NCBI GenBank assembly: GCA_964036195.1
Contig: OZ038450.1
Location: 2,296,701-2,360,700, forward strand
Direction: 5' to 3'
From: Sphaerolaimus hirsutus
Taxonomy: Eukaryota > Nematoda > Chromadorea > Monhysterida > Sphaerolaimidae
DNA length: 64,000 bases
The notes under the pieces were generated by a model. The model had not been told where the DNA came from, did no database searches, and was given only the letters and a program-made list of their open reading frames with translations. The position numbers were made by a program, and so were the translations under genes. This document shows, piece by piece, positions 8,461-32,104 of the stretch (positions are counted from its first letter, which is position 1; every line of letters begins with the position of its first letter).

Positions 8461-11225
8461 TCACTTGTAGAACTTGATGGCCAGGTCCATGTAGCAGGCG
8501 CCGGCGGCGGCGAGCAGCGCCTGCAGCAGGAACAGGGGGCACAGCGGGGCGAACACGCACGACACGCCGCCGTCCCAGCCCGTGTACTGCGTGCGCATAT
8601 TGTTCAGCTAATGGATAAGTCGCAAGCAAAGTAAACGTTAACCAGTAAAGTGGCAAGTCAAATGCAAAGTTGGCTTGCACTTCTAAATACGTGCTAGGTT
8701 AATTTTTCGATGAAGATCAGTGTAGCATTTGCACTTAAATGAGCACATAATTTTTTTTGTAAATTGCGTGAATGTTTGTCGAGCCAAAAATAACTCGCCA
8801 CCAGCCAAAAACGTACGGCGGCGTTGTGCGGCGCGCGTCTGTGCAGCGGCTCGATGGCGGGCGAACACGAGGCTCATGGCCGCGTAGCCGACGCACATGG
8901 CCGCGTAGGCGCCCATCAGCAGCGCGGAGAAGCGCCGCAGCGCGAATTGCGCCAACACGTTGCCCGCCAGCGACCAGAGCAGCACCGCCGCCGCTTGCAC
9001 GTAGTGCACCGCTCTCGCTGCACACATCGATATAAACATAGTAGATATATGAAGTACGAAAAGGCACGAATGCTTTGTCACGTGTCATAAGTTTTAGAGT
9101 GCAAAGACATGTCATTATTTTCCATATCTCCACCAAGCGTATATTTACTCGGTGGACCGCAAAGTATGCGTTCAAAATTACTTATGTCTTAGTCTATAAC
9201 GCGCAAACAGGATACTTATGCACGCTCTGTTACCAAAAAGTTACAAAAAGAAAAACATTTCAAAAGGAGAAATACGGTGGCGCGTACAACAGACGAGTGT
9301 TTTTTCCTCAGACGTTTTATTTTTATAACAATTTTGATTTATTAACGATGACGTCATTATGTAGTGCTTCAGAAAAAATTTTAACCTGCGTCCTCGAGTA
9401 TAGCTATTTAAATATATAGTATTTTATATACCATCGGGCGTCAATCCCAGACCCTGCAAAATGTCAAATGTCATGCAGTGTCTAAAGTCATGCAAAATGC
9501 ACTATAAGATGGTCAAATGTCATGCAGTGTCTAAAGTCATGCAAAATGCACTATAAGATGGTGAACGTACGTTTGCCATTTTCAATGATTTTAGACACTT
9601 TGCACAACATTTCACATCTTCCACGCTTATCTGGTACAGCCCCTGGACAGCGAGCAGGTGAACGGACGCACCGATGCCGAGCACCTCCAAGTGGGCCGTG
9701 TGCGCGGCCACCACGGCGCCGTACAGGAGCACGTGGCAGGCGTCCAGCTGCACGGTGGCCGCCAGCGCCGTCAGCAGGTGGTACGTGCGCGTCACGTGCA
9801 TCCGCCGCTGGCTGCGCCGCTCCGCCATGTCCGCCCGCCCCCATTGCTGCATGCTGACAGGCGATTGCAGCGGGCGGCAGTCACGGACTCTGGAAAATGA
9901 GCTGGAAAATGGCAAATGTCATGCAAAGTGTCTAAAGTCATGGAAAATGCCCTGTGGCAAACTTTCTTGCAAATTTTGGCAAATTTTGCTGGGCATTTTA
10001 CACGATTTTTGACACTTTGCATGACATTGACATTCTATAGGGCATTCCACAGGGTCTGGGATCGGCACCAGGGCTGAGGGAGTTTTTGAATGGGAATGAG
10101 CCGGTTTGATGTCTTTTATGGGTTATTGGCGGATGGATGTGATTGTGGAGGCTGGTCGGATATGGACTGGCGAAAGCGTACCTAATTTTCAGACTTCTCA
10201 GAGCTAATTTTTTTTTGGCCAGCTCAAATAGTTGCGCCTGAAAGTTAGTGCAGCGTAAATATCGTATGCACTATTGTAGTCGCCTTGATTTCCATCCCAG
10301 AAGACAGCAGTTAATATTTATCGAAAAATTCTCACCAAAAACACCAAGTTCCCTCTTTTGTCAACAAAAATCAGTGTGCAGCACCAGCTGAGCAACCAGT
10401 CCACCAGCACTCTCAATTAAACCGACAAAATTCCTACACCGCGGCAGCGAACGACCATGAACACCAAAACGCACACGCTCAGGTGCCACTCCCAGACCCT
10501 GTCAAATGTCAAATAAATGCAAAGTGCCTAAAGTCGTATAAAATGCCTTGGAAAATTGTAAACAAGTTTGCCACTTTGCAGGATATTTTCCGTGACTTTC
10601 GATACTTTGCATGATATTTTACATGCATTTGACAAGGTTTTGGAGTGTCCCCAGGTCGAACGCTAGCGCGCGCAATTCGCAAATGATAAAATCTGGCGAC
10701 GGCGGGAGATGCCAGGTGAAACATCTAAATATGTGGCGCGGGATCGAATTTGCCAGACATATTTTTGGGCTGCCGAAGTGATAAAAGCTGAACTTTTTCT
10801 GACGTTCGATTTCTTTGCGGTCAGGATTAACCGAGTGAAGGTCAAATGTCAAAAAGTTCACTTTAACGCTTTCAAATGACGTCGTGGCAACATTACAACA
10901 GTAGTTCCGATTTAACATTGTCGTCTATTCGGCTGCCCCCTGAAAAGAAACTTTTTTCGGCTCTGATCACTCAGCCAAAAAGTTTTAATTAGGTAAAAAT
11001 GACACCTTTCTTAAAAATTATGTTAAAATCTTCAACAAAAACCCGATGCGGCTCGAAGGCGTCGTCTGAGATGGCGCCGGTGGGCACGATGGAGAGCAGG
11101 GACAAGGTGCCCCTGAGCAGGGCGCAGGACGCGAGCAGGGCCGGCGCCGTCACCAGCACCTTCGCGTCGCTGCAGTCTGTGTTCTTGTGCATATTTGGGT
11201 TGTGTGTGGAGGGCGGTCGTTTCAT
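8461..11225 (-). CDS. Four-TM membrane protein, small gene of unknown family
   Basis: Proposed exons in coding order are about 11225-11045, 9853-9638, 9013-8817 and 8607-8461 with stop TGA. Each encodes one or two hydrophobic spans: VLVTAPALLASCALL in exon 1, a span around HVLLYGAVVAAHTAH in exon 2, AAAVLLWSLAGNVLAQ and MGAYAAMCVGYAAMSL in exon 3, and FAPLCPLFLLQALLAAAG in exon 4. The chain ends with the short tail AIKFYK. A tetraspan-like membrane protein of roughly 220-240 residues is implied. Acceptor sites of exons 2 to 4 are convincing, but the exon 1 donor and the exon 3/4 junction do not agree in phase with my best sites, so the model is approximate. Exon 1 lies inside the first long intron of the kinase gene on the other strand, so the genes interleave or exon 1 is wrong. 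Function unknown. Confidence 0.5.
9436..9638. mobile_element. Introner-family copy with a duplicated left segment
   Basis: The left end reads GTCAATCCCAGACCCTGC. The segment around ATGTCATGCAGTGTCTAAAG occurs twice in tandem, 63 bases apart. The right end is degraded. It abuts the 3' end of an exon of the four-TM gene. Confidence 0.6.
9871..10068. mobile_element. Introner-family copy with CAG target duplication
   Basis: Flanked by CAG at 9868-9870 and 10069-10071. The ends are GGCAGTCACGGACTCTG and GGGTCTGGGATCGGCAC, with the usual inverted arms between. It lies in the first intron of the four-TM gene, just upstream of the kinase 5' end. Confidence 0.72.
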
Positions 11226-14200
11226 GCGGCGTGAGTACGTAAAATACCTGAATTTTGGAAAAATCCGGGGAAAAATATTACCTCATTCAGTTTCCAATAA
11301 AACCATCATGGATGTCATCTTTGTTTATTGATAAAGCACTCAAAACCGATACAAATTGTGCTGAACAAATTGCAAAATAATCACGCGAAATAATGTCAAA
11401 TGTACGACAGCGCGAACTTCTCCAATCCACCAATTTTTCAACTAGTGGATTTAAATTCGGCCAGCCTGTCAAAGGAACAGTGAACCGCAAATAGATGAGT
11501 GCCCAGTGTCCACATTTGCGACGTCGATTACCTACCTAACTAGGTAATGGTCACACTATAAATATTGTATAGTCCAGTTACTTTACACCCTGCGTGGTGG
11601 TTCCCGCTGGAAGCGTGCCAACTACTTTTCTACCCATGCGATTTTGATAAAAAGTTGAAAAATGTCATTTCTGTTATAGCGCTATATGTTCACTTATTCA
11701 CAACAATTAATTTTTTCATCTGTTATACAAAAATCGCATGCTTCATCATCATTTGCACGCTTCCAACGGGAGACATAAATGAGTGCGAGGGCACCGCCAA
11801 ATAAACTAGGTAAACAACATACCCACGTGAAAACAGGCAGCTGAAATACGGATCTGCGCCGCGGACGCCCGGCGTGACGGTGGAGGGCTTGGAGCGGCGC
11901 GGCCGGTTCCTGGTGCCCAAGTCGGATCTGATGCGGCGGCCGCCGATCGCCGGCCTCCCGCCCACCGACCCCACCAACGAGGCAGAGATATTGGCGGAGA
12001 AAAAGAGTGCGTCCAGTCTACGCTGCCGTACTGAGGCGAGAGAGCATTTGGAGCTCGAGATACAGTATTCATCTGAATCTACCGTATCTATCAAATTAAA
12101 AACCTGTCCGACATATTTCTCAATTCCGTCGGGCGAGGGTACCGTAAGCGATTAACGGGAAAATTCATGCGCCAAATTAAAAATATCAGGATACATTTTT
12201 GCTTGCAGTACATGAGTAATGCATTGAGTAAGAACTAATGGATAATTTGTGATCATTTACAAAAAATGTAATGTGATAAATTCTCAGTTAAATTTTCAGG
12301 CGAAAAGACATTTGTAAATATTTTGAAGAAAAACATTTTTAGTTCACAATTCAAACGAGAACAATGCACACACGCAACATCAAATACCGTATATTGTCGA
12401 ATAAAACCGCCTTGAATAACTCCCTCCGTTGAATAACTCTGCCCTTTTGGCCGAGTGAGGAAGAAATAACCCCCCTTGAATAACTCCCCCCTCAGAAACT
12501 CTGACGAAAAAATAACACCCCAGGAGACTTATTCGGGGACATACGGTAGTATCCAAAAGACATGGTACAGTCAATAAACTGGCGCCGCGATCGCAGGCTC
12601 GAGCACGGAGCCGGCGTGGATGCAGCGGCGGTCGGCGGGGCTGATGCGCGCCGCGCTCAACCACCACCCGCTGCCGTTCGTGTGCCCCGACGGGCAGATC
12701 GACGCCGAGCCCAGGAGCATCCACATGGTCTCCCTGGGCGACTGGGCGCACAAGGACGACGATTCTAGGTGCGTGCGCTGGCAGGTGCCACTCACAGACT
12801 GGTGGTGGGATGGCGCCATTTTAGGGCGCCAAAGGGAGCGGCGCCATGGCGTCAACTGGCGTTTGGCGCTCTTTTTGTTGCGCTTGGCGCCCTTTTCCTA
12901 GCGCTTTTCCACCGCTATGCCAGACCCAGACAAAACTGTGCCATATTACAGGGCATTTTACATGGCTTTTGTCACTTTGCAAGACATTTTACAGGGTCTT
13001 TGGGTGCCCCTGATTCACTTAGAAAAGTAGGTGGGGCGCCGCCACACAGTAAGCGCTTAAACGCACTTGTCTCTGGTTACGTAATCAGCTTTGAACGTAT
13101 TTGAGTTCAACTTTGATTTTGCATTGTAATCTCTGTCAACTAGAGATAAAAAATCAAACACAAAATTCAACTCGTAAATATTCAGAGATGATTTACGAGT
13201 GCTCAAATTAGAGTTGACTGGCGTTAGTATGTCAACTGGCGAGTGCGGCGACACACGAGAACCCAAACGACCAGCGTCTGTGCGGCAGGTGCGGCCGGCT
13301 GCGCAGCTTCGACGAGGTGTACATGTTCACGGAGGAGCTGGCCTACGAGACGCTGGCGCAGCGGTGCCGCTTCCGGGGCGACGAGCTGGCGCAGGCGACC
13401 GGCCACCTGGAGCGCATGCCCGACCACTTCGACGAGCTCAAGGTGCCCGCCTCCGTGTGGAGACTCGCACTCGTCAGCGCATGTAAGTCACGGGGGGGGG
13501 GGGGGTGCTCACGGGTGCACGCAGAGGTGGAGGTAGAGGGCGCTAGAAAATCGCATCGAGAAACAAGTAACGATGGCAAACAAATTTTTTTGAATTTTTT
13601 GGACTTTATTTTTTATTTCACCCCTGTAAAACCAAAAATCTATTTTTTCTAGCGAAATTCTATGTTTGGAAAAACACTTAGACAGCGATCACACTGCATT
13701 TTTGTGACGACTCCGACAACACTTGAAAAAGTTCCATAAGTCGAGTGAAAAGTTCCATATTCATGAGTGAATGTGGTAAAGTATACATACCACCTAGGCG
13801 TATATGCACGTCAAATTTTCCACTGTCGGAGCCCGACAGGTGCGCCGACAATTTAAAAAAAAAGTGGTCGTCACATTACGCGAGTGTGACGACAAGTAAA
13901 ATATTTGATCTAGTCGTCACAATGAGCATGGTTAAAAAATGGTCCCTACTTGTCGCCAATAACGAGGCCGACCAGTCGTCACACTCATGAAAATCTGCTA
14001 AAAATAGATTTGTCATCACAAAACGGTCTGTGACGAGTAAGATCTATTGTCGTCACACAAGTGCAGTGTGAAAGGGGCCTTACCGTATTTCCTCGAAATA
14101 CCCCCCTCGAAATACCCCCCCCCCCCTCGTTTGACCCCCCCCCCCCCTCTCGGGACCACTATGAAACAATCACCCCCCTCGAAATACCCCCCCCCAAATT

Positions 14201-17200
14201 GAGTGTAAAGGGAACGTACATGACAATAACTGTAGTTTGTGTTCTGTGTACTGCAGAACACACGTTAAAACAATGTCGGTGTCACGTAAGAACAGTGTAC
14301 ATACCATCTACATAAATATTAGTCTACAGAACCTTAAAAATGGCGGTTTTTGTTGCATTTTTCGACGTCTGCGTACGTTTCAGACGACAATTTCGTACTT
14401 GGTTTTCAAAAAATTTCTTGTGAAATAATAACCCCCCCCCCTCGTTTAACCCCCCCCCCCTTTCGGGACCACTATGAAACAATCACCCCCGGGGGGTATT
14501 TCGAGGAAATACGGTATTTAAAATTTTTTCAACAAAATTTAAACACTTTTTCCGAGGGGTTTGCCATCGTTAGACATCTTCACGGCGCCATTCGCAAATT
14601 GGCTTTCCATCGCAAAGTTCCATCATTAAATGGATGAAGCAAAGAGCCTAAAACTTTGAAGTATTGGCGCCTCATAAACGGTGTAGATTAAACGTGTTAT
14701 TTACCCGCAAAACGGTTTTCGAATTTTTTTGGTTATCAAATTTTCGACTTTCCCAATTTCTTGTTTGGTCATTTTAGAATTTTTCAACTTGATAAATAGA
14801 TGTTGAACATTTGAAGGGTGTGCTTCTAAAAGTACCGATCTACAAATTTTTCAAATTTGAGTTAGGACCATTTTTGGGCTCCCCATAAAAACGCGCTTCA
14901 AAAAATATACATAATATGTGGGGGGTGCGAAATTCAATTTTGAAATTTTGGGGGCAAAAAATACAAAAAAAGCAAAATACAGTACTTGTAATTTATAAAG
15001 TACCGATCTACAAGCTTTTTCAGCTTTTGTATCTTTTAAAGTATCGATCTACACACTTTTTCAAAATTTTACTTTTAAAGGTAAATACTGATCTGCACAA
15101 TCTTTTTTGTGCTTCTAAAAGTACCGATGTCAGATCGGCACTTTTCAGCACAAAAACTAACTTTGTGCTTTTTTATTATTGGTAAAACTACCGATCTACA
15201 TCTATCTGATTGTGTGCTTTTAAAGGTACCGATCTTCATGCGCTTCACAAATTGTACCATGAAAAGTACTGATCTACAGGGTGCGGCAATTTAGACCTGC
15301 GCTCTAGATTTCCAATAACTTGCCACTGGGTGGTCGGATTAATGTCATATTTGAGGTCAACATTAACAACTAAATAGGAAAGGATCCCTGAAGATATGGC
15401 TGCGATAGCTCCAATCTTTCTCAAGTTATTCATGGAAACGTGTAATCGTCACGTTTCCACCACCTAGCTTTACGACCAATCACGCAAGCGCCCACCGATT
15501 TCCTTATGAGCATAGCGAATTGGTGGCGGGCGTGCACGCATTTACGTATGCAGCTGCGAAAAGAAAATCAGAAAAAAACCCTGCAAAAAAACAATCCGAT
15601 CCCGATCCCGGTCCCGAGAAGTCAATCCCGTTTGAACGATATCACAAGGTGGTGGAAAAGTGACAATTACGCGTTCGCATGAATAACTTGTGAACGAGTG
15701 GAGCTATCGCAGCCAGGGATCCTATCCTATTTAGTTGTTAATGTTGACTTGAAATTTGACATTAATCCGATCACCCAGTGACAAGTTATTCGAAATCTAG
15801 AGCGCAGGTCTAAATTGCCGCACCCTGTACAATATGGAGGCAATTCACTAGATTTTATATAGCTAGTTACACAAGTGTCACCCACAGACTATACCATGCA
15901 TAACAATAACTAACAATATACCCCAAGTACCCATACTCAAAATACCCATCCCCAATACCCCATGTGGGAATTGCATACTCCAAACTTTGAATTGCGATTA
16001 TCTCAAAATCGATGTTTTGTAGATCGGTGCTTTTAGAAGCACACCCATTTGGAGAATTATCAATCAGTGCTCCCTTCCATTGCAGCCCCCAATGCTGCAT
16101 CCGAAACGGAGTCAGAGGCGAATGTTGGATACGTGCCAAGGGGTTATCTCATGGCCAGGGCTGCGTTCATTGACTTGATCAAGCTACACCCCTGGTACAT
16201 GGCGCCAATGCACCCCGATGATGCCAGGGTTAAAATGCGATCCGTGAGTTCTCAAAATCGATCAGGGTCCACTCCCAGACCTTGTAAAAAACCAGGGAAA
16301 ATGTCAAATCATGCAAGGTGTTTAAAGTCATGTAAGATGTCAAACGACCAGCAAACAGAATAAAATAAAATTTGATATTTATGTTTGACCATGACATTTG
16401 ACCTTTACTTGGCATTTTACAGTGTCTGGTAATGACACCAGGGCCCAGAAGGACACCGGGACATTTTGTCAAGTGCCATTCCGTCAAACAGTTTGCATAA
16501 ATTCATTGCAAATGTAAAAACCTTCACCTGTCACTTGAAATAGGAATTTTTGTCTGTCTGAAGTATCAAAGTGGCCACTGACAAAGCAAAATGTACACTC
16601 AGGTCGGCTACACGGTGGGCACGTTCTTCATCCACGAGAACCGGTCGTCGGACAAGGACAAGCCGTTGAAGCTGTGCTTCGGCTGGCCCACCTGCTCGCT
16701 GCACATGTTCCTGCCCAGCACCGATGGCGCGTACACCCTGCAACCAATATGGCTGCTCATTTTGAGGGACCCCTTTGGACGATACATTATCCAGTCTTAC
16801 CCCAATGCGCCCTTTGATAGGTCGGTTTTGGTAGGGTTCAGGCTGTCTGGAGAAATAAATTTACCTAGGTATGTACATTTACGTTTCTCCGGAAAAAAAG
16901 TACCAGTACTCACCTTTAAACATACTTTTTGAAAGTACGCGAGTACAGAAAATCGAAAAAACACTCGCTTTTACGTTTTCCCTGAAAAAATAAGCGTATT
17001 TATGTTTACTCACCATTTACGCAGTGTAAATGTGAAAAATAACTTTCGTTTTCTGTACTCAGGGGTCAGTAAAAATTGAAAAAGTGCAATACTTTTAACA
17101 ACTGGCCCGCACCCAGCCTGTGGGCGCTGGCGGCGCGCGTGTGCGGCTGCGGCCTGACGGACGAGGAGTGGCGGGCGCAGCAGGCGCACGAGAAGGCCCC

Positions 17201-20200
17201 CTTCAAGGTGTGGCTGCGCGGCGGCCCCGACCCAAAGTCGCTGCCCGGCGCCGGCTTCCAGCCCGCCCAGCCGCCCATGGTCAACATGCAGCCAGACCTG
17301 GGTGGCAAGAGGCTCGACGGAGAGCCCCTCATACACAGGGTTCGTTCAGGCGGCCCTGTAACTGTGGACATGTAAACCCGCTTGTCATGTAGGTAAAAAT
17401 AGCAAAAAATAAGTAAATACGTACCATGTATTTATATATCCGAAAACAGCGATTGTAAGCTGAAAATCTAACAAAAATGAACATTTGGGAGTGTATTTTT
17501 TGGGGGAAAAATCGCTTAAAATCAGCTCCACGTAAATAAATAGATAGCTGATCGATTTGGGCTCCGGGGAAAGTAGCCAAAAATTGTCCTGGTATAGATA
17601 GGTAGATAGATAACTGAGCGGGCTTCCGGGATAGATAGATGGCTGGCCGATTGGAGGGGGGGCAGTCCCGCATTGGAGACCCCTGCAACGGGTCTACATG
17701 TCGAGCAGGTTTACATGTCTAGAGAGCCTACCTCGTTGAGGGGAGCAGAGACAAAGCAGCAGCAGCACATGTGTAGGTACAGGGCTGCTTGAAGTGTTCT
17801 GTTAAGTAGGGTGTCAAAGGTACGAATTTCGATAATCGATGTTAAACATTCTATAAGATGAAAGCTAAATATTCGACGCCACGTTCCAATCTCAAAGTAA
17901 GCAAGTGAGTCAAATATATGCAAACATCACTCTTTCTCACCACTTGAACTCCACTTTTCCCGTTAGTTCCCCTTCAACAACACATCAAATAACTCAACCT
18001 AACCGCAGCTGGCCGAGAAGGGCATGTACGAGCGTCTGAGCGCAGCGGTGACGCTCAAAAGTGAAGCGTTCTCGCCCGACCCGAGCGCGCCCGGCGAGGG
18101 CTTGCTGGGCACGGGCAACTTCGCCAAGGTGCCCGTCCCAGACCCTGTAAAATGATCCGTAAAATGTCAAATGTCACGCAAAGTGTCAAAAGTCATGGAA
18201 AATGCCCTGTAAAATGGCAAACGTACATTTGTCATTTTACCGGGAATTTTACACGACTGTAGACAGTTTGCGTGACATTTGACATTTTACGGGGCATTTT
18301 ACAGGGTCTGGGACTGCCCCCAGGTGTTCAAGATGATCTACTCGCGAGCGGCCGATCCGGCGCCCGATGTCAGCAGCCAGGCTGGATTGGTCGATGGACA
18401 GGTGCTTGCTGGCAAACAGGTAAAATGTTGGGATTCCTCCTAGTTTTATCCAGGGGAATGTGTGAACTGCGCTGTAACCAGGGGCCAATTCAGCCAATGG
18501 AGAAGTGTAAAACTGTTTTTAAGTGAAATGAGACGTGAAGTGATAAACGACAAGAGAAGTGAGATAAAAAGTAAAAGTAAAAAAGCGAAGTAAAAAGTGA
18601 ACAGGGAGGTAAAATCAGAAGTGAAATGAGAAGTGAAGGTTACTTCTCGACTTGCGGAATTGGTACCAGCCAGTAGTTACAATTAGCAGTGAACTAATCA
18701 ACTATCAAGCATCAATTAAATATGCACGGTAGGTAAAACTTACGTTGGGGGGGGGGCGCCAAAACACAAAACTATTATAAAAATTGGTGGTGAGAAGATC
18801 CAAGGTGTTCAGAACTATGATTCAGAGTTGTTCTCACATATGGTTTTGTTTGAATTGATGCTCTGAATCTGATATTCAAACCTTGTTCGTGTTTCATTTA
18901 AAACACTATCTTCAATTGAGAAAAATGTGTGAAAAATATTGGTGAAATAAATAGAACGGCAGCCTGCGACAGAACGGCACCTCCAATAGAACAGCAGGTA
19001 AAAAAGTTGACGAAAAAAAATAGAACGGCGCTCTTCTATTAGTAGAAATACGGTAGAACGCATATTGTGAGCGGCTCCGCACGTGACCAGTCAGAGAAGG
19101 GACGCCGCTGACCACGAGAGTGTTCCACTTTTCATCCCTAACGGTTTACATGCTCACGGTTTTCATCTAAAACGCTCTGTTTTACCAGCTGAAACGTACG
19201 GTTTTCAAGCCCCAGACATGTTTTACATGCTAAATTGATGTGACACTTTTCATCCCTGAGTAAAACAGTTTACGTGCCAAAGTATTACGGTTTACAAGCC
19301 ACAGACATGTCAAATAAATACCGTATTTCTCTTGATAGAAGCCCTTCTATTTTTTTCATCAACTTTTTTACCCACCCTTCTATTTGGCGTCCACTCTTCT
19401 ATTTTTTCCCCATTTTTCCAAAATTGACAGAATTACGAATTCCCAAAAAAATTTACTACCTAACTTCCATCATGTCTGACATCAGTGCTTTCAGCAGGTT
19501 TACATGTACCTTCTATCGGAGACGCCCTTTTATTGGAGACCTGCCCCTCTATTAGAAGAAATACAGTACGCCACATTTCATGTAAAGAGTAAATTGGCGC
19601 AAAACACACAACTTTGGCTTGAAAAGTGGCATACTTATAGCAAGTAAAGTGATATATTTTGGATGAAAACTGACACAGTAGAGTAGCCAGTAAAGTGTCA
19701 CACTTAGCTAGTAAAGTGACACAGAATGACATGTAAACTGTACGGGATGAAAAGTGTAAATCGCTCCTGACCGCCGGTCGCTCGCAGATCCAGCTGCGCG
19801 TCGAGTGCGCGCCCATGCTGCGCGAGGTGAAGCTCGCCTCCAGGATCGTGCACGCCAACTGCGTGCGCACCTACGGCGGCTCGGTCGCCGGCGACAAGCT
19901 GTGGATCTACGCTGAGTTCTTGCCCCACGGTCAGATACACGCTTAATCAGATATTAGTGCCTTCCGTGTTATTCTAGGAGATGAGTTGACCCAAACCAGA
20001 TTGAATTTACAAAATAATCTGCCGCAGTGGGGCGTCAAACTTGTACTTTTTATGCACTTTGCAGCACCATCTAAATAAAGGTGATATAGCAATTTTTGGA
20101 AAATCCTGGCAGTACACGATTTCAGTCGTGGGAGCAAAATTTATTACACGACTTTATTCATCAGGTTATGGTAATACACAGTGCAAAATATATGGTCTGG

Positions 20201-21708
20201 CAAGCAACTATAGTTACAAACCATCCAATAAACACGGAATCAGCCATCCAAGTGACAATAAATGTTGTCAGTCATTCTGTTTGTCACCAAGCACTTGTCG
20301 AATTTTCACCCGTGAAGCAATCATCATCACACACACACACTATATTGAGTCACAGGCGAGCTGACGAAGCACGTGCGCAAGGGCGGGCTGGGCTGGGGCG
20401 ACAAGATGAGCGCGCTGGCCGACGTGGCCGAGGGCATGGGCTACCTGCACGAGCACGACATCGTGCACGCAGACCTGGCAGCCAGGAACTGCCTCGTGGC
20501 GCAGCTGCCGCCCCAGGGCGCTTTGCTGGTCTGTGCGCACGGGGGTGCCATACTGCTGTGATAAGGCTCTTTGATCAAAATTCTGGCCCATTTACGTCAA
20601 TTAACGCGGGCATCGAGTTTACGCCGTCACGGCAATCACGTGAAGTTTATTGACCGGTGACAATTTCGCACTCCGTCGAGTCACAAGTGATTCAACTTGC
20701 AAAAGCTCAGCCCGAAAATACTTGTCACTTTCAATTTTACCACTCAATGTTCATTTTTCATATGAAAAGTCCGTACATGTCCCCACTTCCAGACCTTGTA
20801 AAACGTCACGCAGTGACAAGTCATGTAAAATAGCAAACGCGTTTGCCATTTTCCAGCGCATTTTCCATGACATTTTACATTTCACACGGCCTGGGAGTGC
20901 TCCCAGCGACACACACGCTTGCACAGGTGAAAGTGACGGACTTCGGTCTGTCGCGCGACGTGAGCAGACGCGCCTACGCCCGGTCGGAGAGCAAGGAGCT
21001 GCCGTGGAAGTGGATGGCGCCGGAGGCGATCGCCCTCAAGGAGCTCGACCGCGAGAACGACGTGTGGGCTTTCGGCGTCACCGCCTGGGAGGTGCGCTCG
21101 CAGCGCTGCCACGGGACCCACCGCACTAGTTGACGCCGCAAATTTTTGTCAACTGAATGTCAACTAATTTCTTGAAAGCATCACACTTAGCTGAAAAAAA
21201 TGATAAGTGATCAATGAAAAAAAGATTATGTCACAATGTCAAATTTTCTGTGCCCCATCACATAGGAAAGTTGAAAGCACATAATCAACCAAAATTTAGT
21301 TGACACGAATTGCAAACGTCGACTAGTGTGTGGGTTCAACGCCGTAGCAGTAACATGTCATTCTAAACAGCAATTTCGCATTCTCCCGCTCTAACCTACT
21401 ATTCAAACTACTGGCGGAATTATTTGCATTTGCAATTCAGCAGTAAGAAAAATAACCTATCAAATACATTTTGCATCAACAATGTGAGCCATTGCAAAAT
21501 TTGCGCAGCTCCTGTCGCACGGGCAGTCGCCCTTCTCTACGCTGAACGCCGCCCACGTGCTCGACTTTCTGCGCGCCGGAAATCGACTGGAAAAGCCGGA
21601 ATCGTGCAGCGACAACGAAGTCTGGGCCACGGTGCGCCACTGCTGGCTGCCCGACAAACTCCTCAGGCCGAAATTTGTCGGCCCCGATGGGCTGGCGCAG
21701 TTCTTTCG
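10457..21708 (+). CDS. SH2-domain non-receptor tyrosine kinase, divergent (14 exons, last exon missing)
   Basis: Exons: 10457-10482 (ATG), 10655-10715, 11841-12006, 12597-12768, 13244-13482, 16086-16243, 16603-16868, 17117-17339, 18009-18128, 18324-18419, 19788-19929, 20356-20528, 20927-21091, 21509-21708. All 13 junctions are GT-AG and in phase, giving 735 residues. Residues 1-255 match nothing I recognise, except a CGRCGR pair of cysteines. An SH2-like domain follows (about 262-345): HPWYMAPMHPDDA at its start, then GTFFIHEN where FLVRES is usual, so the phosphotyrosine-binding Arg is His. The kinase domain (about 465-735) has the glycine loop GTGNFAKV, a probable AxK lysine in LAGKQ, HADLAARN, DFGLSR, LPWKWMAPEAI and the RPKF end motif. 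HRD is changed to HAD; the catalytic Asp and Asn remain. It would phosphorylate tyrosines in the cytoplasm if active. Two of its introns are exactly introner copies. The C-terminal exon was not found. Confidence 0.8.
10483..10654 (+). mobile_element. Introner forming kinase intron 1 (172 bp)
   Basis: The intron starts GTGCCACTCCCAGACCCTG and ends GGAGTGTCCCCAG. Nothing else lies between the exons: the mobile element is the intron. CAG stands directly before it (10480-10482) and as its last three bases (10652-10654), which is the target duplication. The interior is a long imperfect palindrome with repeated TGCAAAGT and AAAATG-type words. Exon 1 (26 nt) joins exon 2 in frame, which continues in phase to exon 3. 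Confidence 0.8.
11565..11795. repeat. Dispersed repeat with CGCTTCCAAC ends
   Basis: Inverted words CCCGCTGGAAGCGTGCCAAC and TGCACGCTTCCAACGGGAGA stand at the two sides. A second copy is at 40130-40370 (same order, TACTTTACACCCTGC then TTGGCACGCTTCCAAC) and a fragment at 41800-41845. Confidence 0.6.
12385..12548. mobile_element. TACCGTAT-terminus element, short
   Basis: Ends TACCGTATATTGTCGAATAA and TTATTCGGGGACATACGGTA, TA at both edges, with AATAACTCCC and GGGTTATT-like arms. It lies in a kinase intron. Confidence 0.65.
12785..13010 (+). mobile_element. Introner-family copy carrying a GGCGCC-rich insert
   Basis: The left end CAG-GTGCCACTCACAGACTGG starts 16 bases after the donor of kinase exon 12597-12768. 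The right end is GGGTCTTTGGGTGCCCC. The left arm is replaced by about 110 bases rich in GGCGCC that resemble the GGCGCC arrays near 59,240 and 60,250, so it looks like an insertion or recombinant. Confidence 0.6.
14081..14516. mobile_element. TACCGTATT-terminus element with poly-C arms, copy 1
   Basis: Termini TACCGTATTTCCTCGAAATA and its inverse at the right end, with TA edges. Between them are runs of C in CCTCGAAATACCCCC repeats and a unique core of about 250 bases shared with the element at 22271-22708. Confidence 0.75.
14817..16046. mobile_element. hAT-like element with repeated AGTACCGATCTAC motif
   Basis: Termini GGGTGTGCTTCTAAAAGTAC and the inverse AGAAGCACACCC. Flanking 8-mers ATTTGAAG and ATTTGGAG differ at one base. 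The interior carries many copies of AAAGTACCGATCTAC. It is interrupted by the element at 15277-15827 and lies in the kinase intron 13483-16085. Confidence 0.7.
15277..15827. mobile_element. Nested element with about 170-bp inverted arms
   Basis: Termini CAGGGTGCGGCAATTTAGAC and the inverse, with TA on both sides. The arms match over roughly 170 bases (GCGCTCTAGATTTC near each end, GCTGCGATAGCTCC further in). The centre has GATCCCGATCCC. It sits inside 14817-16046. Confidence 0.7.
16266..16438 (+). mobile_element. Introner-family copy with CAG target duplication
   Basis: CAG occurs at 16263-16265 and 16439-16441. The termini read GGTCCACTCCCAGACC and GTGTCTGGTAATGACAC. It lies 22 bases inside the kinase intron 16244-16602. 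Confidence 0.72.
18129..18323 (+). mobile_element. Introner forming the intron inside the kinase glycine loop (195 bp)
   Basis: The intron opens GTGCCCGTCCCAGACCCTG and closes TCTGGGACTGCCCCCAG. The whole length is the palindromic element. The exons join GGCAACTTCGCCAAG to GTGTTCAAG, giving GTGNFAKVFKM, the conserved nucleotide-binding loop, so this splice must be correct for a functional kinase. Flanking triplets are AAG and CAG, so one target copy has probably changed. Confidence 0.88.
18482..18666 (+). mobile_element. Second introner-like family (B) copy
   Basis: The left end GGGCCAATTCAGCCAATGG and right end ACTTGCGGAATTGGTAC are partial inverses, and CAG stands on both sides (18479-18481, 18667-18669). 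The interior is AGTGAAATGAGA-like repeats, unlike family A. It sits in a kinase intron. Confidence 0.6.
19319..19568. mobile_element. TACCGTATT-terminus element, CTTCTATT subtype
   Basis: Termini TACCGTATTTCTCTTGATAG and TATTAGAAGAAATACAGTA, with CCCTTCTATTT repeats inside. A related fragment with TAGAACGGC repeats and AGAAATACGGTA lies at about 18930-19055. Confidence 0.6.
20777..20903 (+). mobile_element. Introner-family copy next to kinase exon 20927-21091
   Basis: Left end CCCACTTCCAGACCTTG, right end GGCCTGGGAGTGCTCC followed by CAG. It ends 24 bases before the acceptor of the DFG-encoding exon, so the acceptor itself is not from the element. Confidence 0.6.
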
Positions 21709-22270: not shown

Positions 22271-22708
22271 TACCGTATTTCCTCGAAATACCCCCCCCCT
22301 CGTTTGACCCCCCCCCCTCTCGAGACCACTATGAAACAATCACCCCCCCCCCTCGAAATACCCCCCCCCCCAAATTGAGTGTAAAGAGAACGTACATGAC
22401 AAATACTGCAGTTTGTGTTCTGCGTAGTGCAGAACACACGTTAAAACAATGTCGGAATCACGTTAGAACAGTGTTTTTACCATCTACGTACTAATATTAG
22501 TCTACAGAACCTTATAAATGGCGGTTTTTGTTGCATTTTTCGACGTCTGCGTACGTTTCAGACGACAATTTCGTACTTGGTTTTCAAAAAATTTCTTGTG
22601 AAATAATAACCCCCCCTCGAAATACCCCCCCCCCTCGTTTGACCCCCCCCCTCTCGGGACCACTATGAAACAATCACCCCCCGGGGGGTATTTCGAGGAA
22701 ATACGGTA
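22271..22708. mobile_element. TACCGTATT-terminus element with poly-C arms, copy 2
   Basis: Same termini, orientation and core as 14081-14516, including the shared words CAGAACACACGTTAAAAC and GACGTCTGCGTACG. Length differs mainly in the C runs. Confidence 0.75.
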
Positions 22709-24049: not shown

Positions 24050-24295
24050 GCAATGGGCCACACCAATGTGTTTAGAATCCAGCTGCATGCTGCCCCTTCA
24101 GTTTTAGAATCCGGCCACCGCCGCACCTATGTTTTCAGAATCTGGCCACCGCCGCACCTCTGTGTATAGAATCTGGCCACCGCCACATCCTCTTTTTTAG
24201 AATCCGGCCACTGCCGCACCTTTGTGTTTAGAATCCAGCCACTGCCGCACCCTGATATTTGGAATCCGGCCACCGCCGCACCCTCGCGTTTAGTA
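24050..24295 (+). repeat. Tandem repeat, unit about 40 bases
   Basis: About six copies of AGAATCCGGCCACCGCCGCA followed by a variable T-rich spacer. It lies just upstream of the gag-like frame and may belong to the same retroelement leader. Confidence 0.7.
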
Positions 24296-24407
24296 TTTGT
24301 TCATTTACCACACCCTTGTGTGTAGAATTCAGCTGCAGACTGCACACACACATTTTTAGATATTCAGATTTAGGTGAGCACCCCTCAACCACAGGGAAGA
24401 CTGGCAA

Positions 24408-26155
24408 ATGAGTATAGTGGGTGACTCCGACCTAAGGACAACCAGATCCGGTGCCGTCCTCAGACGACAGTCATCAAGCTCAGATAGTCTACAAAGCGCA
24501 GTAACACACATGATGGTGAAAGTTACCAATGTCACTGCTGTAGAATTGGCAGATTACATCGCAGACTGCGAACAGAAGGGGAATCACCTTGCAGCCATAA
24601 ATGTGATCCTCCAGTTGCAGAAATTTGGCCAACCAACATGGCCGTCATTCAACAATCCAACTAAAGCCAGCAAAAAGTACACCTTCAGGAAAGTCCGGCA
24701 AATTGCTGAGGAATATTTCAAAGTGTACAAAACTTTTCAAATGCGCAACCCTGAAACGGCCGACACAGATGATTCTGATGCATCCGATGGGGATTCAGCC
24801 ACACAGAACACACTGCCAGCAAAATCAGCAGCACAGAGCGATTATGAAAAATTAGCAAAGTTGCTTGAAAAAACTATTTTGCAGCAACAGGCCACCGCGC
24901 AGGCACAACAGGCAGAGATGGCGCATCTGCAAAGGAGCATCCAGCAATTGCAGCTGGGCCAGTCAAGCAGCAATGGCACAGCACCAGATGTCAAGCAAAT
25001 TATCTGTGCAGATCCACGGAAAAGTCAAGCAGATGAGCGATTAGCACGGATACAGGATGCACCACTGCTGCACCAAATAATACAGTATGTAGAACAGTTT
25101 GCAACTTCAAGCGCAGATGGCACGCAGTCCCTCTCACGGGCACTCAGCCTGATGGATGCAAAAGACAAAATGGATGTGGGCCATGTCGCAGGGGCTGCCA
25201 GCAAACAACAAAAATTTGATGGCACAACAAATGCCACCACAGGGCCATTTTGCTACTGGCTGCATGGAGTTGCACAACAGGCAATTGGCATGCCAGAAGC
25301 ACATCAGCAGGTGAAGCTCAGCAGTGGTACCAAGCCATCCGCATTGACAAGCGAAACAATATTTTGTATGTCATGGACCAGCTGACAGGCATTTAAAGAA
25401 CTGACCACAGGATTTATTCAGTTGCAGACTGGTATAATTTGATGGCAAAAGCCGGGGACTCCATTGTGGAACTGGCCACACGATTGAGTGCCACATTCCA
25501 CCATGTTAGCAGCACCATGCCAGATAAGGACAGAGAACACATGATTGGGGACAAATTATTTGTAGAAATCCCCAAACTTGTTCCATCTGCATGCTGGTAT
25601 GTGTGGCGCGAAAGGTGGCAGGAAGGACAGTGTGATTTGAACACCACAGTGTCCAAAATGGAGGCTGCCAGGTTAGAAATACAGAAAAACAGGATGCTGC
25701 AGCAGGATGACCAGAAATGGGGAGAGCAGCACTGGTCAAACCACAGGGGCCCGGCAGATTTCAAAAAGCAATGGACAGAAGGGCCAGATGAGGTGAAAGT
25801 CATGGCAGACCTGCAAACATTGAAGGGTCCATGGTGCACCAACCACCTGCACAGGTACCCAATGCAGCACGACCCCAGCAAATGCTTTGTGAACCCGCAG
25901 TCCATGGAATTTCAACCAGATCGGGCAGATAGGGTCAGACAGGGTTTAGCAAGGCGGGGTAAAACAGAAAATGATGCCAGGGAAGCCATGGAGCAGAAAT
26001 GCAAACAGATGGGTATCCCTTTCCAGGGTGCAGGTGAACAAAGCTTGGCCACAGCCCATCAGGTGAATGCAGATGATGAAGTTAAACAGGGAAAAGAAGA
26101 AGCATTTTCGGATGATGATGCAGCAATTGGATATTGGTGCCCAATCGCTACATGA
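24408..26155 (+). pseudogene. Broken gag-like gene of a retroelement
   Basis: The first frame (24408-25385) encodes a 325-residue protein with an acidic Asp/Ser stretch, a Gln-rich coiled-coil-like segment (AQAQQAEMAHLQ) and a conserved-looking helical part. Coding sense moves to another frame near 25,314, where a TAA at about 25,397 interrupts it, and continues as an open frame 25439-26155. The second part has a CxxH...H...C arrangement (residues around WCTNH and HDPSKC) like the zinc-knuckle variants of LTR-retroelement Gag, then a Lys/Glu/Asp tail. No protease, reverse transcriptase or integrase follows and I see no LTRs. It is an intronless insertion between the kinase and zinc-finger genes. 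The class of retroelement is uncertain. Confidence 0.6.
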
Positions 26156-27252
26156 ACACAGCAGAAGGACACAGTTGCACAGTGCTGCGCATGCCAGATT
26201 GTATAATGATTATTTGATAATTTTGATTTTGTATGGTGCTTTATTTATGTTTGGTCCCTTTTGGACACTATCTATGTTTCATTTGGTCCTATTGATTCAA
26301 GTCAATTTTACCGTTGTATTTGCAAAAATTATACTACTTTATATGGTTTAAGTTGCCTCAACAACTTTTACTTCTTTTCATGGGTATTTCAAAGTTTAAA
26401 ATGCAATTTTCACAAAACTGAAAAAGAGTTATCGAGTTTCGGAAGCAAACTCCTCAACTGTGGTTTTCACGTTAGTTTTGCGTATTCGTGACGAATCGAA
26501 ACGTTCGCAGGAACAAGGCCCGCCCGAAGTGATCTTCTACTAGTTAAGCGGATGGAAGCAAAGAAAATAAATGCATTTACACAAAGCTGGTAAAAATGAA
26601 GCAAGAAATTAAAATTATGTTCAAAGTGTATTACACAATGGTTGTAAAAAGAATGTCTCAATAAATCATAAAATGAAGCAAAACTAAAAATAGACATAAT
26701 TACATTGAATTTCGTGAATAAGTTCTTCTTAAATGACCCCCCTATTGATCCAGTAACAAGAAGAAATAACTATCCTTCAATAAATCCCAGTTTTAAAAAA
26801 TCCGACAAAAATTTCCATGGGATTTACTCAAGGATTTACCGCATGCATACGTAATCAAATATGTATTTAAACATTCGGAAATCGGGTTTATCATTCAGTC
26901 TTATCTAATGAGATGCTATCGAGGCACACGGACATTTCGGGCCAAAGTGGAAGTTCCAGAGCCTGTAAAATGACCTGTCAAATGTCAAATGTCATGCAAA
27001 GTGTCAAAAGTTATGAAAAACAACCTGTAAACTGCTCAACTTCGTTATTTCCCGTATTTTGCTATTTTACGGTGTATTTTTTATATACATTTGACATTTT
27101 ACATTTGTGTGGCAACTGAATGGCATACCACAAACGCTACAACGATATGAGATCGCCGCTAAATCGGTTACAACACAATCGCAAACTACAAAGTCATCTC
27201 ATACGGAAGGAGGAGGAAGGAGGTAGTGCCGAGGGGACACTTGCAGCAGCGT
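26156..27252. other. AT-rich spacer after the gag-like pseudogene
   Basis: No exon recognised. It contains the introner-family copy at 26946-27118 and otherwise short AT-rich frames. Confidence 0.5.
26946..27118 (+). mobile_element. Degraded introner-family copy
   Basis: Left arm TTCCAGAGCCTGTAAAATG followed by AATGTCAAATGTCATGC, and a diverged right arm ending GACATTTTACATTTGTG. It is between genes. Confidence 0.5.
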
Positions 27253-30224
27253 TCACGTGTCGCCTTTGCACGTGTGCTGGTGGATCTTCAGGCCGCGCGG
27301 GGTGCTCGTGCGGAACGGACACTTGTCGCATTTCACATTGGCGGCGCCTTTCGCCCGCGTCTTACCCTGCAAATAACCTTCGTGTTTAATGTTGTTGATA
27401 ATGTTTTTACCCTAATAGAATAAACCTCGAATCAGACCCACTTGAATCACTCCCCCTGTTGGCTGGGTGAAGGAAATACCCCCCTTGAATAACTCCCCCT
27501 GTTGGCTGTGTGAAGGAAATACCCCCCTTGAATAACTCCCCCTGTTGGCTGGGTGAAGGAAATACCCCCTTGAATAACTCCCCCTGTTGGTTGGGTGAAG
27601 GAAAGACCCCCCTTGAATAACTCCCCCTGTTGGTTGTGTGAAGGAAATACCCCCCTTGAATAACTCCCCCTCTGTGTCGGGTGGAAAACATGCCGCAAAA
27701 ATAAAAAAACGATCGATCTAGTCAGACACGAAAAAAATTCGTCTGGGTGCTGATTCACGAATGAAAATGAAGTGTGCTGCGTGAAACGAAAAATACAAAA
27801 GAAGTTGAGCCTACGGCAGCGGCAGTAAATACATAATGTGTACGCAGTCTGTAAATACATACTTTGTAAATACTGTAAATACAGGCTTTTTCTGAGAACT
27901 TCCCCTCGCGAATAACTCCCCCTCAAGAACTCTGGCGAAAAAATTTCTCCCCGGGGGTCTTTCGGTAGAAGTTCGAAATACCTAGAAGCACTATTTAGTT
28001 GACTACCGACATTTCAAAACTTTTGAAAACTAATAATTCAGATTCAATGCATTTAGGTCTACAAAAATGATTCATCTTCAATCTCCTTTATTTATTTTAC
28101 GCAGTTACGCAATTTTTAAATTTCGGTAGTAAACTAGTGTGTGTGGGGCAAATATACGAATTGAACAGGTTATATCTGCTGCACAACAGAATTAAAAATG
28201 AATAGCATAAAAACATTCTTCCTGGAGTGCAAGTATGTACCTTAGGTAAAAGAATGCCTCCCAACAACCAGACAGAATGACCCTGACAATCCCACTCACA
28301 CTTCCCCCCTCATAGTCATCATCATCATCCTCATCATAGTCGTCGTCGTCGTCCACCCCGACCTCCTCGTCGCCCTCGTCCACATCGTTGTCATTGTCCT
28401 CGACGTCGTCATCCACCACCTCCTCCTCGCCACCCGTGTCGCCCTCCGCCTGCGATATGGTGATGAATATGTGAAATTGTGCGCTGGAGCAGGAAAAAAT
28501 TGACCTAGTGCATAGTAGTGTTCAAACGGGAACCCGGTCCCGGTAGATGGTTCGGCAAAATTCCGGGACTGAGGCGGTACCGGTACCGGTCCCGACACCC
28601 CAGTCCCGGTCCCGGTCCCGATAAAAAATATGCCAGTCCCGGTCCCGGTCCGAAAAAGTGGTCCCGTTTGAACCCTAGTGCATGGGTAGGAAAATTTTTG
28701 GTGGAGGTTTTTAAAAAAAATCGATGCTTGCGTTTAACAAAAGAAAGTGTAAAAAAACCCCGGTCATCCCTAGTCAGGTCTAAAAAAATCAAAACCACCA
28801 ACATCATCATCACCCTCCTCCTCCTGCTCATCGTCGCCCTCACTATCGGCCTCCTCGTCGCCGTCGTCCTCGCTCTGCTCGCTGGCCTGCCTGCGTCTTT
28901 TTGTAGGAGCCGACTTGCCGCCGGCGGCCTGGCCGGACCCTTTGCGCCCGCCCGCGTCGCCCGACTGCCCTGCGCTGGCGTCGTCGGGCGAGTCGCGCTG
29001 CCGCGCCCGTTTGAACCCGCCCCGAGTGTTCTCGTCGTCCACTGAGCCGGTTTTTTGGGAGGAATGAGTCAAGGATAAATGCAGTGGGTGGGGGTGATGT
29101 CATGTGCTCTCCAATAGGGGGTTGGGGAAGGTTAGGAATTTTTGAGCAATTTTTTGCCGCAACTTTTGTTAAAAAATCGCAGTTACATGACTTTTTGCCT
29201 ATTTCCACCCTCAAAATCAATAGTTCAGGTGTCTTTTGGCCTACCGTATTACCTCGAAATACCCCCAGGGGGTTTATTATTTCGCCAGCAAAATTTTAGG
29301 GGGGGATAATTCGAGGGGGGGTTTATTCGAGGGGGGGGGGGTCTATTATTTCGCCAGAAATTTTCGGAAATTCCCCATACTCAGACATAGAAAAATCAAA
29401 CAATTACATAGATATAAATGTGGTTATAGGCATATATAACTGTTTATACACATAAACCCTACCTAACATCACTCAATCATCAGTTTTAACGCGTGTTCTG
29501 CATTGTACAGATCACAAACTGCGGTATTCGTCATGTACGTTCCCTTTACACTCAATTTTAGGGGGGGGGTATTTCGAGGGGGGGGTTTATTATTTCCTCA
29601 GCCGAATTTTAGGGGGGGTATTTCGAGGGGGGGGGGGGTTAATTCAAGGGGGGGGGATAATTCGAGGTAATACGGTATTTCCGCTCACCAGTGATGGGGC
29701 AGGGGTCCGAGTTGTGGAAGTGCACAAAGTGCTCGTTGAGCGGCTTCTGCGAGGGGTAGTACCACTCGGTGCAGCCCTTGAAGCACTTGTACAGGTTGGG
29801 CGTGTGCCGCTCGCGGTGCTCGGCCAGCTGCGATTCGCTGCAGCTAGTGTTGCACGTGCCGCACTCCGACACGCTGCGAAATTGGCACGCCGCCAAGTGG
29901 GGTGCATGCAACTATCCAGCTAATGGACAAGTGGCAATAAAGATAATGCGGCCGGTAAAGTTATATTTTAAATTAAGAGTTCAAAAAATCCTTCTTGAAG
30001 CTACCTATTTAGAATACTCGCGGAATTGGCACCAGATTTGTGGCGGCGGGGAGGGGGGGGGCACACGAATATGCGTACACACAGGTCCATACACTGAAAC
30101 ATTTCACCAAACTCCATTCCGCCAAGTACAAGACAGAAAGAACAGAGCAGCGAGCAAAAAATGCGCACCTGCCGTCGCCGCCGGCATTGGAATCGGTGAG
30201 CACCTTGTCCTTGCCGCCCGACAT
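27253..30224 (-). CDS. Acidic C2H2/C2HC zinc-finger protein, 247 residues, 5 exons
   Basis: Exons in coding order: 30224-30169 (ATG), 29873-29689, 29041-28803, 28449-28300, 27366-27253 (stop TGA). All junctions are GT-AG with agreeing phases (2, 1, 0, 0). Domain order: short N-terminus; two zinc fingers in exon 2 (CGTC then HRERH, and CFKGC then HFVHFH); a basic nuclear-localisation-like segment (KRARQR, TKRRRQ); a Glu/Asp block at the end of exon 3; a nearly all Asp/Glu exon 4; and a final finger CDKC with HQHTC. This suggests a nuclear chromatin or nucleic-acid-binding protein (inference). The start may lie further upstream if more exons exist, since exon 1 could also be internal. I do not recognise the family. 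Confidence 0.72.
27411..27971. mobile_element. CCTCGAATAA-group element with tandem core
   Basis: A diverged member of the TACCGTATT group. Its left half is a tandem array (27445-27675) of about five to six units of some 43 bases, each containing TTGAATAACTCCCCCTGTTGG and GTGAAGGAAA words. The right end reads CCGGGGGTCTTTCGGTAG. It starts 45 bases upstream of the last exon of the zinc-finger gene, in its intron. Confidence 0.55.
28516..28677. mobile_element. hAT-like element with CCCGGTCCCGG arms
   Basis: Termini TAGTGTTCAAACGGGA and TCCCGTTTGAACCCTA, flanked by the 8-mers GTGCATAG and GTGCATGG. The interior is GGTCCCGGT repeats. It lies in the zinc-finger gene intron. Confidence 0.65.
29242..29677. 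mobile_element. TACCGTATT-terminus element, inverted relative to copies 1 and 2
   Basis: Termini TACCGTATTACCTCGAAATA and TCGAGGTAATACGGTA. Its core shares the inverted words TCATGTACGTTCCCTTTACA and GCGTGTTCTGCA with 14081-14516. Its right edge is 11 bases from the donor of zinc-finger exon 2. Confidence 0.7.
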
Positions 30225-30825
30225 GCTGCCCTGCCCTGCCCTACAGATTGTCAATGTTCGGGGTCGGGGTTAAGGATTATTAGAGCGGCTGTTCTAGTTC
30301 CTGTGGGGTGGTGCTTTCCGTAAATTTTGCCATGTGAAGCGAATTATGTTACTAAGGCTGCCTGATTGATGGGGGGGTGTTATTTACGGGAGTTTTCTCT
30401 GCGAATATCGATCGCGATGCGTTTTCACCAAATTCCATTATCAATCCAAGCAAAGTTTAGCTGTAAAACATTTTACAGACGGAAGAATCGGTTGTATTTA
30501 ACTACACAACGTTTCATGGAAGTGCGGAAATGTCAAGATGCATTGTTCTTGTGTAGTCCAATGCAGGAAGCATTACCCACGTAAATACATAGCCATTTAA
30601 TTGATGCACAGGAGTGTTTGCAACACACAAAAATTTATTGATTTGATTGCATTTTGAAGCAACTCAGTTCACAATCAGCATTGATAACGACTGTTGACCA
30701 GCATTATGAATCGAGGTGGGAATCGAGAGATCGCGTTAATGTATATAATGCACAACTTGGGCGCCAATATGTAAATAATCCGTGTACGTTTTACGTTTTA
30801 TGTACGTTTAACGGTATCTCATCAC

Positions 30826-30994
30826 TAGGGTTCAAACGGGATCCCGATCCCGATCCCGATCCCGGATCCCGTGAAATTCCGGGATTTACCAGTCCCGATC
30901 CCGATCCCGAAACCCCAATCCCGATCCCGATCCCGAAATCTCAAAACGTGAATCCCGATCCCGATCCCGAAAAGTCAATCCCGTTTGAACCCTA
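30826..30994. mobile_element. hAT-like element with GATCCC arms
   Basis: Termini TAGGGTTCAAACGGGAT and ATCCCGTTTGAACCCTA with a perfect 8-bp duplication CTCATCAC at 30818-30825 and 30995-31002. The interior is nearly all GATCCC repeats. Fragments of the same family occur near 15,600 and 46,930-47,001. Confidence 0.78.
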
Positions 30995-31264
30995 CTCATC
31001 ACGCGACCAGTGTGAAGCCAACCCATCAGAACAGCTGGAGCCAGTCCAGCATCCTGTAGAAAATGTCACATTTAAAGTTGACAACTGCCAGGTAAAATGT
31101 AAAGTAGCCAGCAAAACTTCCTTTTAAATTTGACAAATTGTAAATACGTGACACGTTACGCTTTACATGACATTCTTCGGGTGTGGGACAGGTCCAAGCA
31201 TGAAAATATAGTACGAGGGAAAAATAAAACTGTATAATACTTCATTGAACCTCAAAGCGTGTAG

Positions 31265-32104
31265 TCACTTGCAGAACCGAAATCTCGACTCATCGACAGC
31301 TGCAATCTTCACGCATTCACCATCTCGAGCACTTTTCAACACCATATCGCCCGTATCATCCATATCGCACTTGATAATCGCGTCGGTGAACAAGCTCACA
31401 ATTCGGCCGTATTTCGCGTCGACGCTGCAGATCACGGGCGCCAGTTGACTGGCTTCACATTCATCATTGGTGTTGGCACAGAGCCAATGGGCGGAGTCTG
31501 ATAGAACTGCCAGCAGGGAGGCGACCACTTGCTTGCGGCTGCGGTTGTCGTTCACGTGAGAGTCTACGGGGTTTGGCAGATTTATTGTCATATGGTAAAT
31601 TTCGCAGCAATTTCACAGCAGCCGGCCGGCACCACACTATGCAAATGTAGTGAGACAAATTTGCCAATGTCATGAAAACATCGTTCGAATTTGTCCAACA
31701 ATTGTACATTTTATATTACATTTGACAAATTTTGTCTGTTTTACATCCGTGAACACAAGAAAAGAAACGAACCGGCGAGCGTTCCCAGCCCATCAACAAC
31801 CACAGCGAAATTATGCCGCGTTCTATCGGGCACCGAGTGCAAATCGCCGCACAAAGAGACGAGTTTGCGCGCGGCGGTGGCATCGGTGCGCAGCTGCCCG
31901 GCGCCCGAGTCGTTCGCAGGGTCGTCGTAGTGCAGCTGGGGGCAGTCCCAGAACCTGTCAAATGTCATGCAAAGTGTCTAACGTACGTTTGCCATTTTAC
32001 CGGGCATTTTACACGACTTTTGACACTTTCCATGACATTTTCCACTTGACAGGGCATTTTACAGGGTCTGGGACTGGCACCTGGATGCCTCTGAGCGCCG
32101 CCAT
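31265..32104 (-). CDS. 161-residue protein of unknown function, 3 exons
   Basis: Exons: 32104-32081 (MAALRGIQ), 31935-31773 and 31563-31265 (stop TGA). Phases 0 and 1 agree. The first intron is an introner copy. The protein is helical in appearance with no signal peptide or membrane span; notable segments are TAARKLVSLCGDLHSVPDR, QVVASLLAVLSDSAHWLC and IVSLFTDAIIKCDMDD. It contains several cysteines but no zinc-binding pattern. The frame is also open upstream of the ATG, so 5' exons could exist. I do not recognise the family. Confidence 0.65.
31936..32080 (-). mobile_element. Introner forming intron 1 of the 161-residue protein gene (145 bp)
   Basis: Read on the - strand the intron starts GTGCCAGTCCCAGACCCTG and ends TTCTGGGACTGCCCCCAG. 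CAG precedes it at the end of exon 1 and is its last triplet. The two arms are nearly perfect inverses around a short centre with TTTGCCATTTTAC. The exons join in frame (MAALRGIQ to LHYDDP). Confidence 0.85.

Follow-up and report, generated by a model that had tools for sequence, protein, structure and literature searches.

Genes and other features of the window

The window, by which we mean the whole 64-kb stretch of DNA that was analysed, contains coding-like stretches whose characteristic feature is a GC-rich composition. Exons of a tyrosine-kinase domain occupy 18.0 to 21.7 kb on the plus strand (Pfam PK_Tyr_Ser-Thr, 8e-55; PDB matches to Trk, ABL, ITK and TYK2), with further coding-like stretches upstream of them; with only the kinase N-lobe as the query, PDB returned spurious solenoid matches. 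On the minus strand, joined stretches at 41.1-44.4 kb match integrin-alpha domains (Integrin_A_Ig_1, 6.8e-09; Ig_2, 6e-08; Ig_3, 3.8e-05), and FG-GAP scores 7e-04 on them, below the Pfam cut-off. This integrin-alpha-like gene (41116-44427) is built of small GC-rich exons and may include similar minus-strand stretches as far as 50.4 kb; those at 45.6-50.4 kb gave no Pfam match. By this gene content the window is eukaryotic and likely animal, tyrosine kinases and integrins being found in the closest unicellular kin of animals as well.

Two long adjacent open frames of 335 and 252 residues (24378-26155, plus strand), possibly a retroelement-like gene, have no Pfam match at E up to 0.01. The window also holds other dispersed repeat families, one in direct orientation (14105-14516 and 22281-22708, 89% identical, within Pro/Asn/Thr-rich open frames) and one inverted (14812-15278 and 34115-34580, 86% identical). 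A further segment of 208 bases (59576-59783) matches its own reverse complement at 84% and is not among the element copies described below.

A dispersed palindromic transposon

Searching the window with nhmmer (E<1e-3), using as queries the three stretches 10483-10654, 18129-18323 and 31936-32080, uncovered 23 clusters of one element (Table 1), while the identical search of 20 dinucleotide-preserving shuffles and of the reversed window yielded 0. An earlier note on this DNA had called the three stretches copies of a single palindromic element with many more copies elsewhere. Sequence comparison bears out the first point, and the 20 clusters beyond the original three, against none in shuffles, bear out the second. 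The same note's description of the family as active is not supported: pairs of different copies are about 70-82% identical among the 30 longest self-matches listed. Identity of copies to the consensus ranges from 66 to 91%, and most copies lie outside coding-like sequence.

The majority consensus of 181 bases is almost a single long palindrome. As RNA, the copy in the kinase gene (e2 in Table 1) folds with -121 kcal/mol (z -18) and the copy in the minus-strand gene (e3) with -58 kcal/mol (z -6.8). The element is a MITE, a palindromic non-autonomous DNA transposon that is short and dispersed and has inverted terminal repeats. This assignment draws on the 23 dispersed clusters, the inverted-repeat ends and the in-frame stops of e2 and e3, coding capacity having been judged from stops in the gene's frame of these two copies. 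Rfam returned nothing at gathering scores. Pfam scans found no domain on the plus strand at 1-15001 (two of three frames) and 9001-18999, or on the minus strand at 7001-16999 and 26001-35999 (three frames each). The terminal motif had no match in a collection of genome contigs; its single match in a viral contig collection (L001) was rejected as a chance 19-mer in an open frame of a contig with 27% GC.

At the centre of dyad symmetry the consensus reads GGCAAACGTACGTTTGCC (GGCAAACGTACATTTGTC in e2; for example 18216-18233), which includes a donor-like GTACGT and thus a possible cryptic splice donor in intronic copies. Between the copies at 9438-9643 and 9874-10068 lies a minus-strand coding-like stretch (9613-9882), possibly a membrane protein, that has no Pfam match.

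Table 1 Copies of the element, with the exons and putative target duplications at the predicted introns. Slashes mark exon-intron junctions, here and in the text.
Feature	Positions	Strand	Remarks
MITE copy	1834..2119		
MITE copy	2915..3079	+	
MITE copy	6498..6607	-	exact CTG flanks on both sides
MITE copy	8117..8249	+	left end degraded
MITE copy	9438..9643		abuts minus-strand coding-like stretch
MITE copy	9874..10068	-	opposite side of that minus-strand stretch
MITE copy e1	10483..10651	+	exact CAG flanks on both sides, GT..CAG; intron status not supported
partial MITE copy	12912..13010		
MITE copy	16267..16438		CAG both sides if left boundary moved one base earlier
kinase exon ending LLGTGNFAK	18009..18128	+	glycine-rich loop start; exon start inferred from AG
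left copy of putative target duplication, AAG	18126..18128	+	differs from CAG at one base; final exonic codon ahead of donor
MITE copy e2	18129..18320	+	left end A (GTGCC), right end B (GGGGC); with next 3 bases, whole predicted intron 18129-18323; flanks AAG and CAG, inexact
right copy of putative 3-bp target duplication, CAG	18321..18323	+	supplies predicted acceptor AG of e2
next kinase exon, VFKMIY...VLAGKQ	18324..18419	+	followed by CAG/GTAAAA
MITE copy	20779..20903	+	between two kinase exons, inside ordinary intron
MITE copy	26947..27121		right end degraded
MITE copy	31038..31195	+	old, 66% to consensus
coding-like stretch beginning LHYDDPANDSGAGQLRTDA	31768..31935	-	downstream of e3
putative target duplication copy, CAG on minus strand	31936..31938	-	gives predicted acceptor of e3; twin 32081-32083
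MITE copy e3	31939..32080	-	with 31936-31938, whole predicted intron 32080-31936
coding-like stretch MAALRGIQ	32081..32104	-	upstream of e3; short, frame open further upstream
MITE copy	32595..32715		
MITE copy	33475..33666	+	flanks CAG and CGG
MITE copy	36116..36312	-	right end degraded
MITE copy	39128..39265	+	
MITE copy	47141..47349	-	left end degraded
partial MITE copy	47766..47854		without ends
MITE copy	50516..50657	+	right terminus deleted
MITE copy	53506..53742	+	internal duplication; flanks CTG and CTA
MITE copy	61481..61669	-	CAG both sides if B end lost one G

Unequal ends and a putative CWG target

The two ends of the element differ, one reading GTGCC (A) and the opposite one GGGGC (B). 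Ends scoring at least 25 were sorted to the nearer of two templates, which covered 36 of the 46 ends in the 23 copies and excluded 10 lower-scoring ones. The A end, GTGCCAGTCCCAGACCCTG, is represented by 17 ends, 13 of which start with GT, and the B end, GGGGCAGTCCCAGACCCTG, by 19, 15 of which start with GG; the sorting behind these counts itself used templates A and B. Both ends are scorable in 14 copies, nine of them A/B, three A/A and two B/B. Several of the A/A and B/B copies are ambiguous: in the copy at 50516 the second A end is a deleted terminus, and the copies at 2915 and 33475 have left ends intermediate between A and B.

With element boundaries set from the repeats alone, the triplet directly outside the inverted repeats is CWG (CAG or CTG) at 16 of the 36 scorable ends, against 1.09 expected, and at 11 of 30 (0.91 expected) once the three starting copies are excluded. 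Shifting the register by one to six bases in either direction (twelve registers) leaves CWG at 0-3 of 36 ends. The 3-bp register does not stand out by left-right identity: of the 14 two-ended copies only 3 carry the same triplet left and right, and base agreement between left and right is 24/42 at the border, 24/42 inside the palindrome at -5 and 19/42 at +6. Since agreement at the border is no better than in one register inside the palindrome, the case for a duplication is made by CWG composition and not by left-right identity. We infer from that composition, seen at both kinds of end, a 3-bp target duplication of which most pairs would have decayed. Duplications of 5 bp (AGGTG) or 8 bp (hAT-type), which e2 alone had suggested, were set aside, as the CWG register test favours 3 bp. 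Taken together, the CWG triplets and a GGG-type repeat at one of the ends make NuwaI transposons (PHIS, Harbinger-related) the nearest match for these termini.

Two copies coincide with predicted introns

The interval 18129-18323 splits the glycine-rich loop of the tyrosine kinase, and its removal gives a predicted spliced product reading LGTGNFAK/VFKM. The Pfam kinase match (8e-55) begins at the glycine-rich loop and spans this junction (position counted by hand), and the TrkC sequence LGEGAFGKVF aligns across it, that stretch alone giving 14.7 bits (E 0.19). Retention of the interval leads to in-frame stops, and splicing to an acceptor 19 bases upstream would cause a frameshift. In the minus-strand gene, removal of e3 joins MAALRGIQ to LHYDDPAND in frame (phase 0) with a positive coding score on both sides. 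Here too retention brings in-frame stops, and the frame is lost with an acceptor 19 bases upstream but stays open with one 42 bases upstream. For the gene interrupted by e3, PDB gave nothing at E up to 10 and Pfam nothing above the cut-off, the one match recorded below it being a domain of unknown function (E 0.009, 15.8 bits versus 27 needed).

To compare all copies, the element plus one triplet was removed from each of the 23 on both strands, and the one-frame joining of coding-like flanks was scored against 11,980 random GT..AG intervals, for which the 99% point is 5.9. Two copies alone exceed this point in an orientation that also gives GT..AG or GT..CAG. These are e2, with a minimum two-sided score of 14.1 (plus strand, empirical 0.0012), and e3, with the highest score of all copies, 16.0 (31939, minus strand, empirical 0.0008). 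The score of e2 is partly circular, as the codon model with GC-rich third positions was chosen after the kinase exons had been seen; its reverse strand scores 7.0 but carries GG..CTT. The same two copies, and no others of the 23, have exon-like flanks on both sides, with a GC content of at least 0.57 in both 120-base flanks (0.68 and 0.57 for e2; 0.67 and 0.66 for e3).

In identity to the consensus they exceed all other copies (0.912 and 0.908, followed by 0.897 and 0.882), by a narrow margin and with a consensus that includes both of them. This combination is what a recent exon insertion, tolerated because it is spliced, would look like; the rankings were noticed post hoc. Judged by eye, the donor GTGCC(A/C) is weak past position 3 and the acceptor, apart from CCCCC, lacks a pyrimidine tract.

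The stretch at 10483-10654 is not supported as a third intron: its coding score is 3.1 (empirical 0.047, one of 46 tests), its flanks have a GC content of 0.51 on either side, and phase-2 coding scores over longer stretches are 2.4 and -7.5. It sits between opposite-strand coding-like stretches (9613-9882 and 11049-11192, both minus). Thus, where the earlier note counted three introns in two genes, the coding test and the flanks uphold 18129-18323 and 31936-32080 and do not support 10483-10654. At the two upheld introns the donor end GTGCC and the acceptor end TGCCCCCAG are as that note described them (31936-32080 on the minus strand). Its view that the whole intron is element holds for the element body, which ends at CCCC, and not for the last three intron bases; this CAG is best read as duplicated target.

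One or both intervals might instead not be introns, the open frames around them being due to chance, to a disrupted pseudogene or to a polymorphic harmful insertion. Such a reading, which we consider unlikely, is in keeping with the e3 gene having found no identification in PDB or Pfam and with e1 failing the coding test. The kinase domain is nevertheless intact across the e2 junction and the remaining kinase exons are open, and e3 tops all copies in two-sided coding score.

Probable origin of the predicted introns

Introners are recognised by similar sequence that reaches both splice boundaries in different genes, and the predicted introns 18129-18323 and 31936-32080 display exactly this. Accordingly, the introner family proposed in the earlier note survives in these two introns, which coincide from first to last base with the element plus a duplicated CAG, and loses the third intron and the epithet active. 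Two introns that are the element from end to end, CAG included, fit intron creation by a DNA transposon. On the strength of two predicted introns in one window, we think it probable that a Harbinger-related CWG (NuwaI-like) non-autonomous transposon creates introns by inserting at CAG within coding sequence in one of its two orientations.

Under this mechanism, a transposase made elsewhere would cut at CWG and duplicate those three bases. The A end begins with GTGCC, so that the junction ...CAG/GTGCC would be a usable 5' splice site, and the B end, ...TGCCCC, followed by the second CAG would form the 3' splice site; the sense product would read CAG/GTGCC...TGCCCCCAG/. Removal of the element and one CAG would restore the uninterrupted gene, with one CAG staying in the mRNA. 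In antisense, or at a CTG read from A to B, no acceptor AG would arise. The asymmetry of the ends suggests that the donor may have originated by a change of a GGG-type end to GTG. We also infer both splicing in RNA and insertion at a site that previously held no intron.

CAG/G is a favoured location for new introns. A fuller account, which we advance tentatively and with somewhat less than even confidence, is that a change at one end turned a NuwaI-type transposon into an intron maker, its host being an intron-rich animal or near relative. The CWG target would supply both the exonic and the acceptor CAG and thereby a seamless frame, the proto-splice site CAG/G would be the transposase target, and only sense CAG insertions would survive in exons. 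Target preference alone would then explain both the clean splicing of new introns and their CAG/G location. The family predicts that sense CAG insertions can become introns and that CTG or antisense insertions cannot. The origin of new introns is a long-standing question, and the anatomy of this element family is simple enough for bench tests.

It is also conceivable, in our judgement quite improbable, that the element entered two pre-existing introns and that the remainder of each old intron was later lost. The location of the majority of copies outside coding-like sequence speaks for this, as does at least one copy (20779-20903) inside an ordinary kinase intron. Such loss, however, needs two independent base-exact trimmings, each with a CAG-type triplet at both exon edges, and e2 and e3 are, by a small margin, the least diverged of the 23 copies. 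Highly improbable is an RNA-borne introner, in which intron RNA was reverse-spliced into new genes and then copied to DNA: end-to-end similarity of introns is likewise described for fungal introners that were interpreted as RNA-based (PMC9860276, available text), but the inverted repeats, the CWG at the borders and the numerous copies away from coding-like sequence favour DNA transposition.

Comparison with known introners and transposons

Intron creation by a DNA transposon, the reading we prefer, has published precedents, including introners in which one splice site comes from the element and the other from the target duplication (Gozashti et al. 2022, PMC9860276, available text). In the survey given there, as far as the available text goes, introners occur in only two animal groups; the main text, in its available part, mentions copepods once and Harbinger never. 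The introners of that study are non-autonomous, have inverted repeats and target duplications, and form whole introns, a set of traits that recurs here in predicted introns and a putative duplication. Their families comprise, in the text available, 5 to >2,000 introns per genome and were analysed with RNA-seq, whereas here two supported introns in one window are predicted from sequence. CWG duplication, which the composition suggests here, receives no mention in the available text of PMC9860276.

The introner elements of Amoebophrya (PMC7789003, available text) resemble the present family in their hairpin-forming inverted repeats and in direct repeats of 3-5 nt that span the exon/intron boundaries. 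As described in that text, they differ in having been defined on non-canonical introns and in showing no family-specific repeat motif, whereas GT-AG sites and a shared terminal motif are found here.

Among transposons, the NuwaI group of the PHIS superfamily (PIF/Harbinger, ISL2EU and Spy relatives) combines CWG duplication with repeats of 12-61 bp that usually start with GGG (PMC4482050, available text). The group is reported there from 16 genomes, all animal, and the abstract speaks of mainly animals. Autonomous NuwaI partners encode a DDE transposase and a Myb/SANT protein; neither gene was found in the stretches scanned here. Our element shares the CWG triplets. Its B end reads GGGGC; its other end departs from NuwaI in starting with GTG, not GGG. 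Intron formation is not described in the available text of PMC4482050, whereas two predicted introns stand here. Listings of the open-licence literature showed no introner family of Harbinger or CWG type from an animal; one listed paper, on fungi (PMC8476143), contains the words introner, PIF and Harbinger. Introners themselves are already known; what would be new is an animal introner family of CWG/NuwaI type in which the supply of the two splice sites is split between the element and its target.
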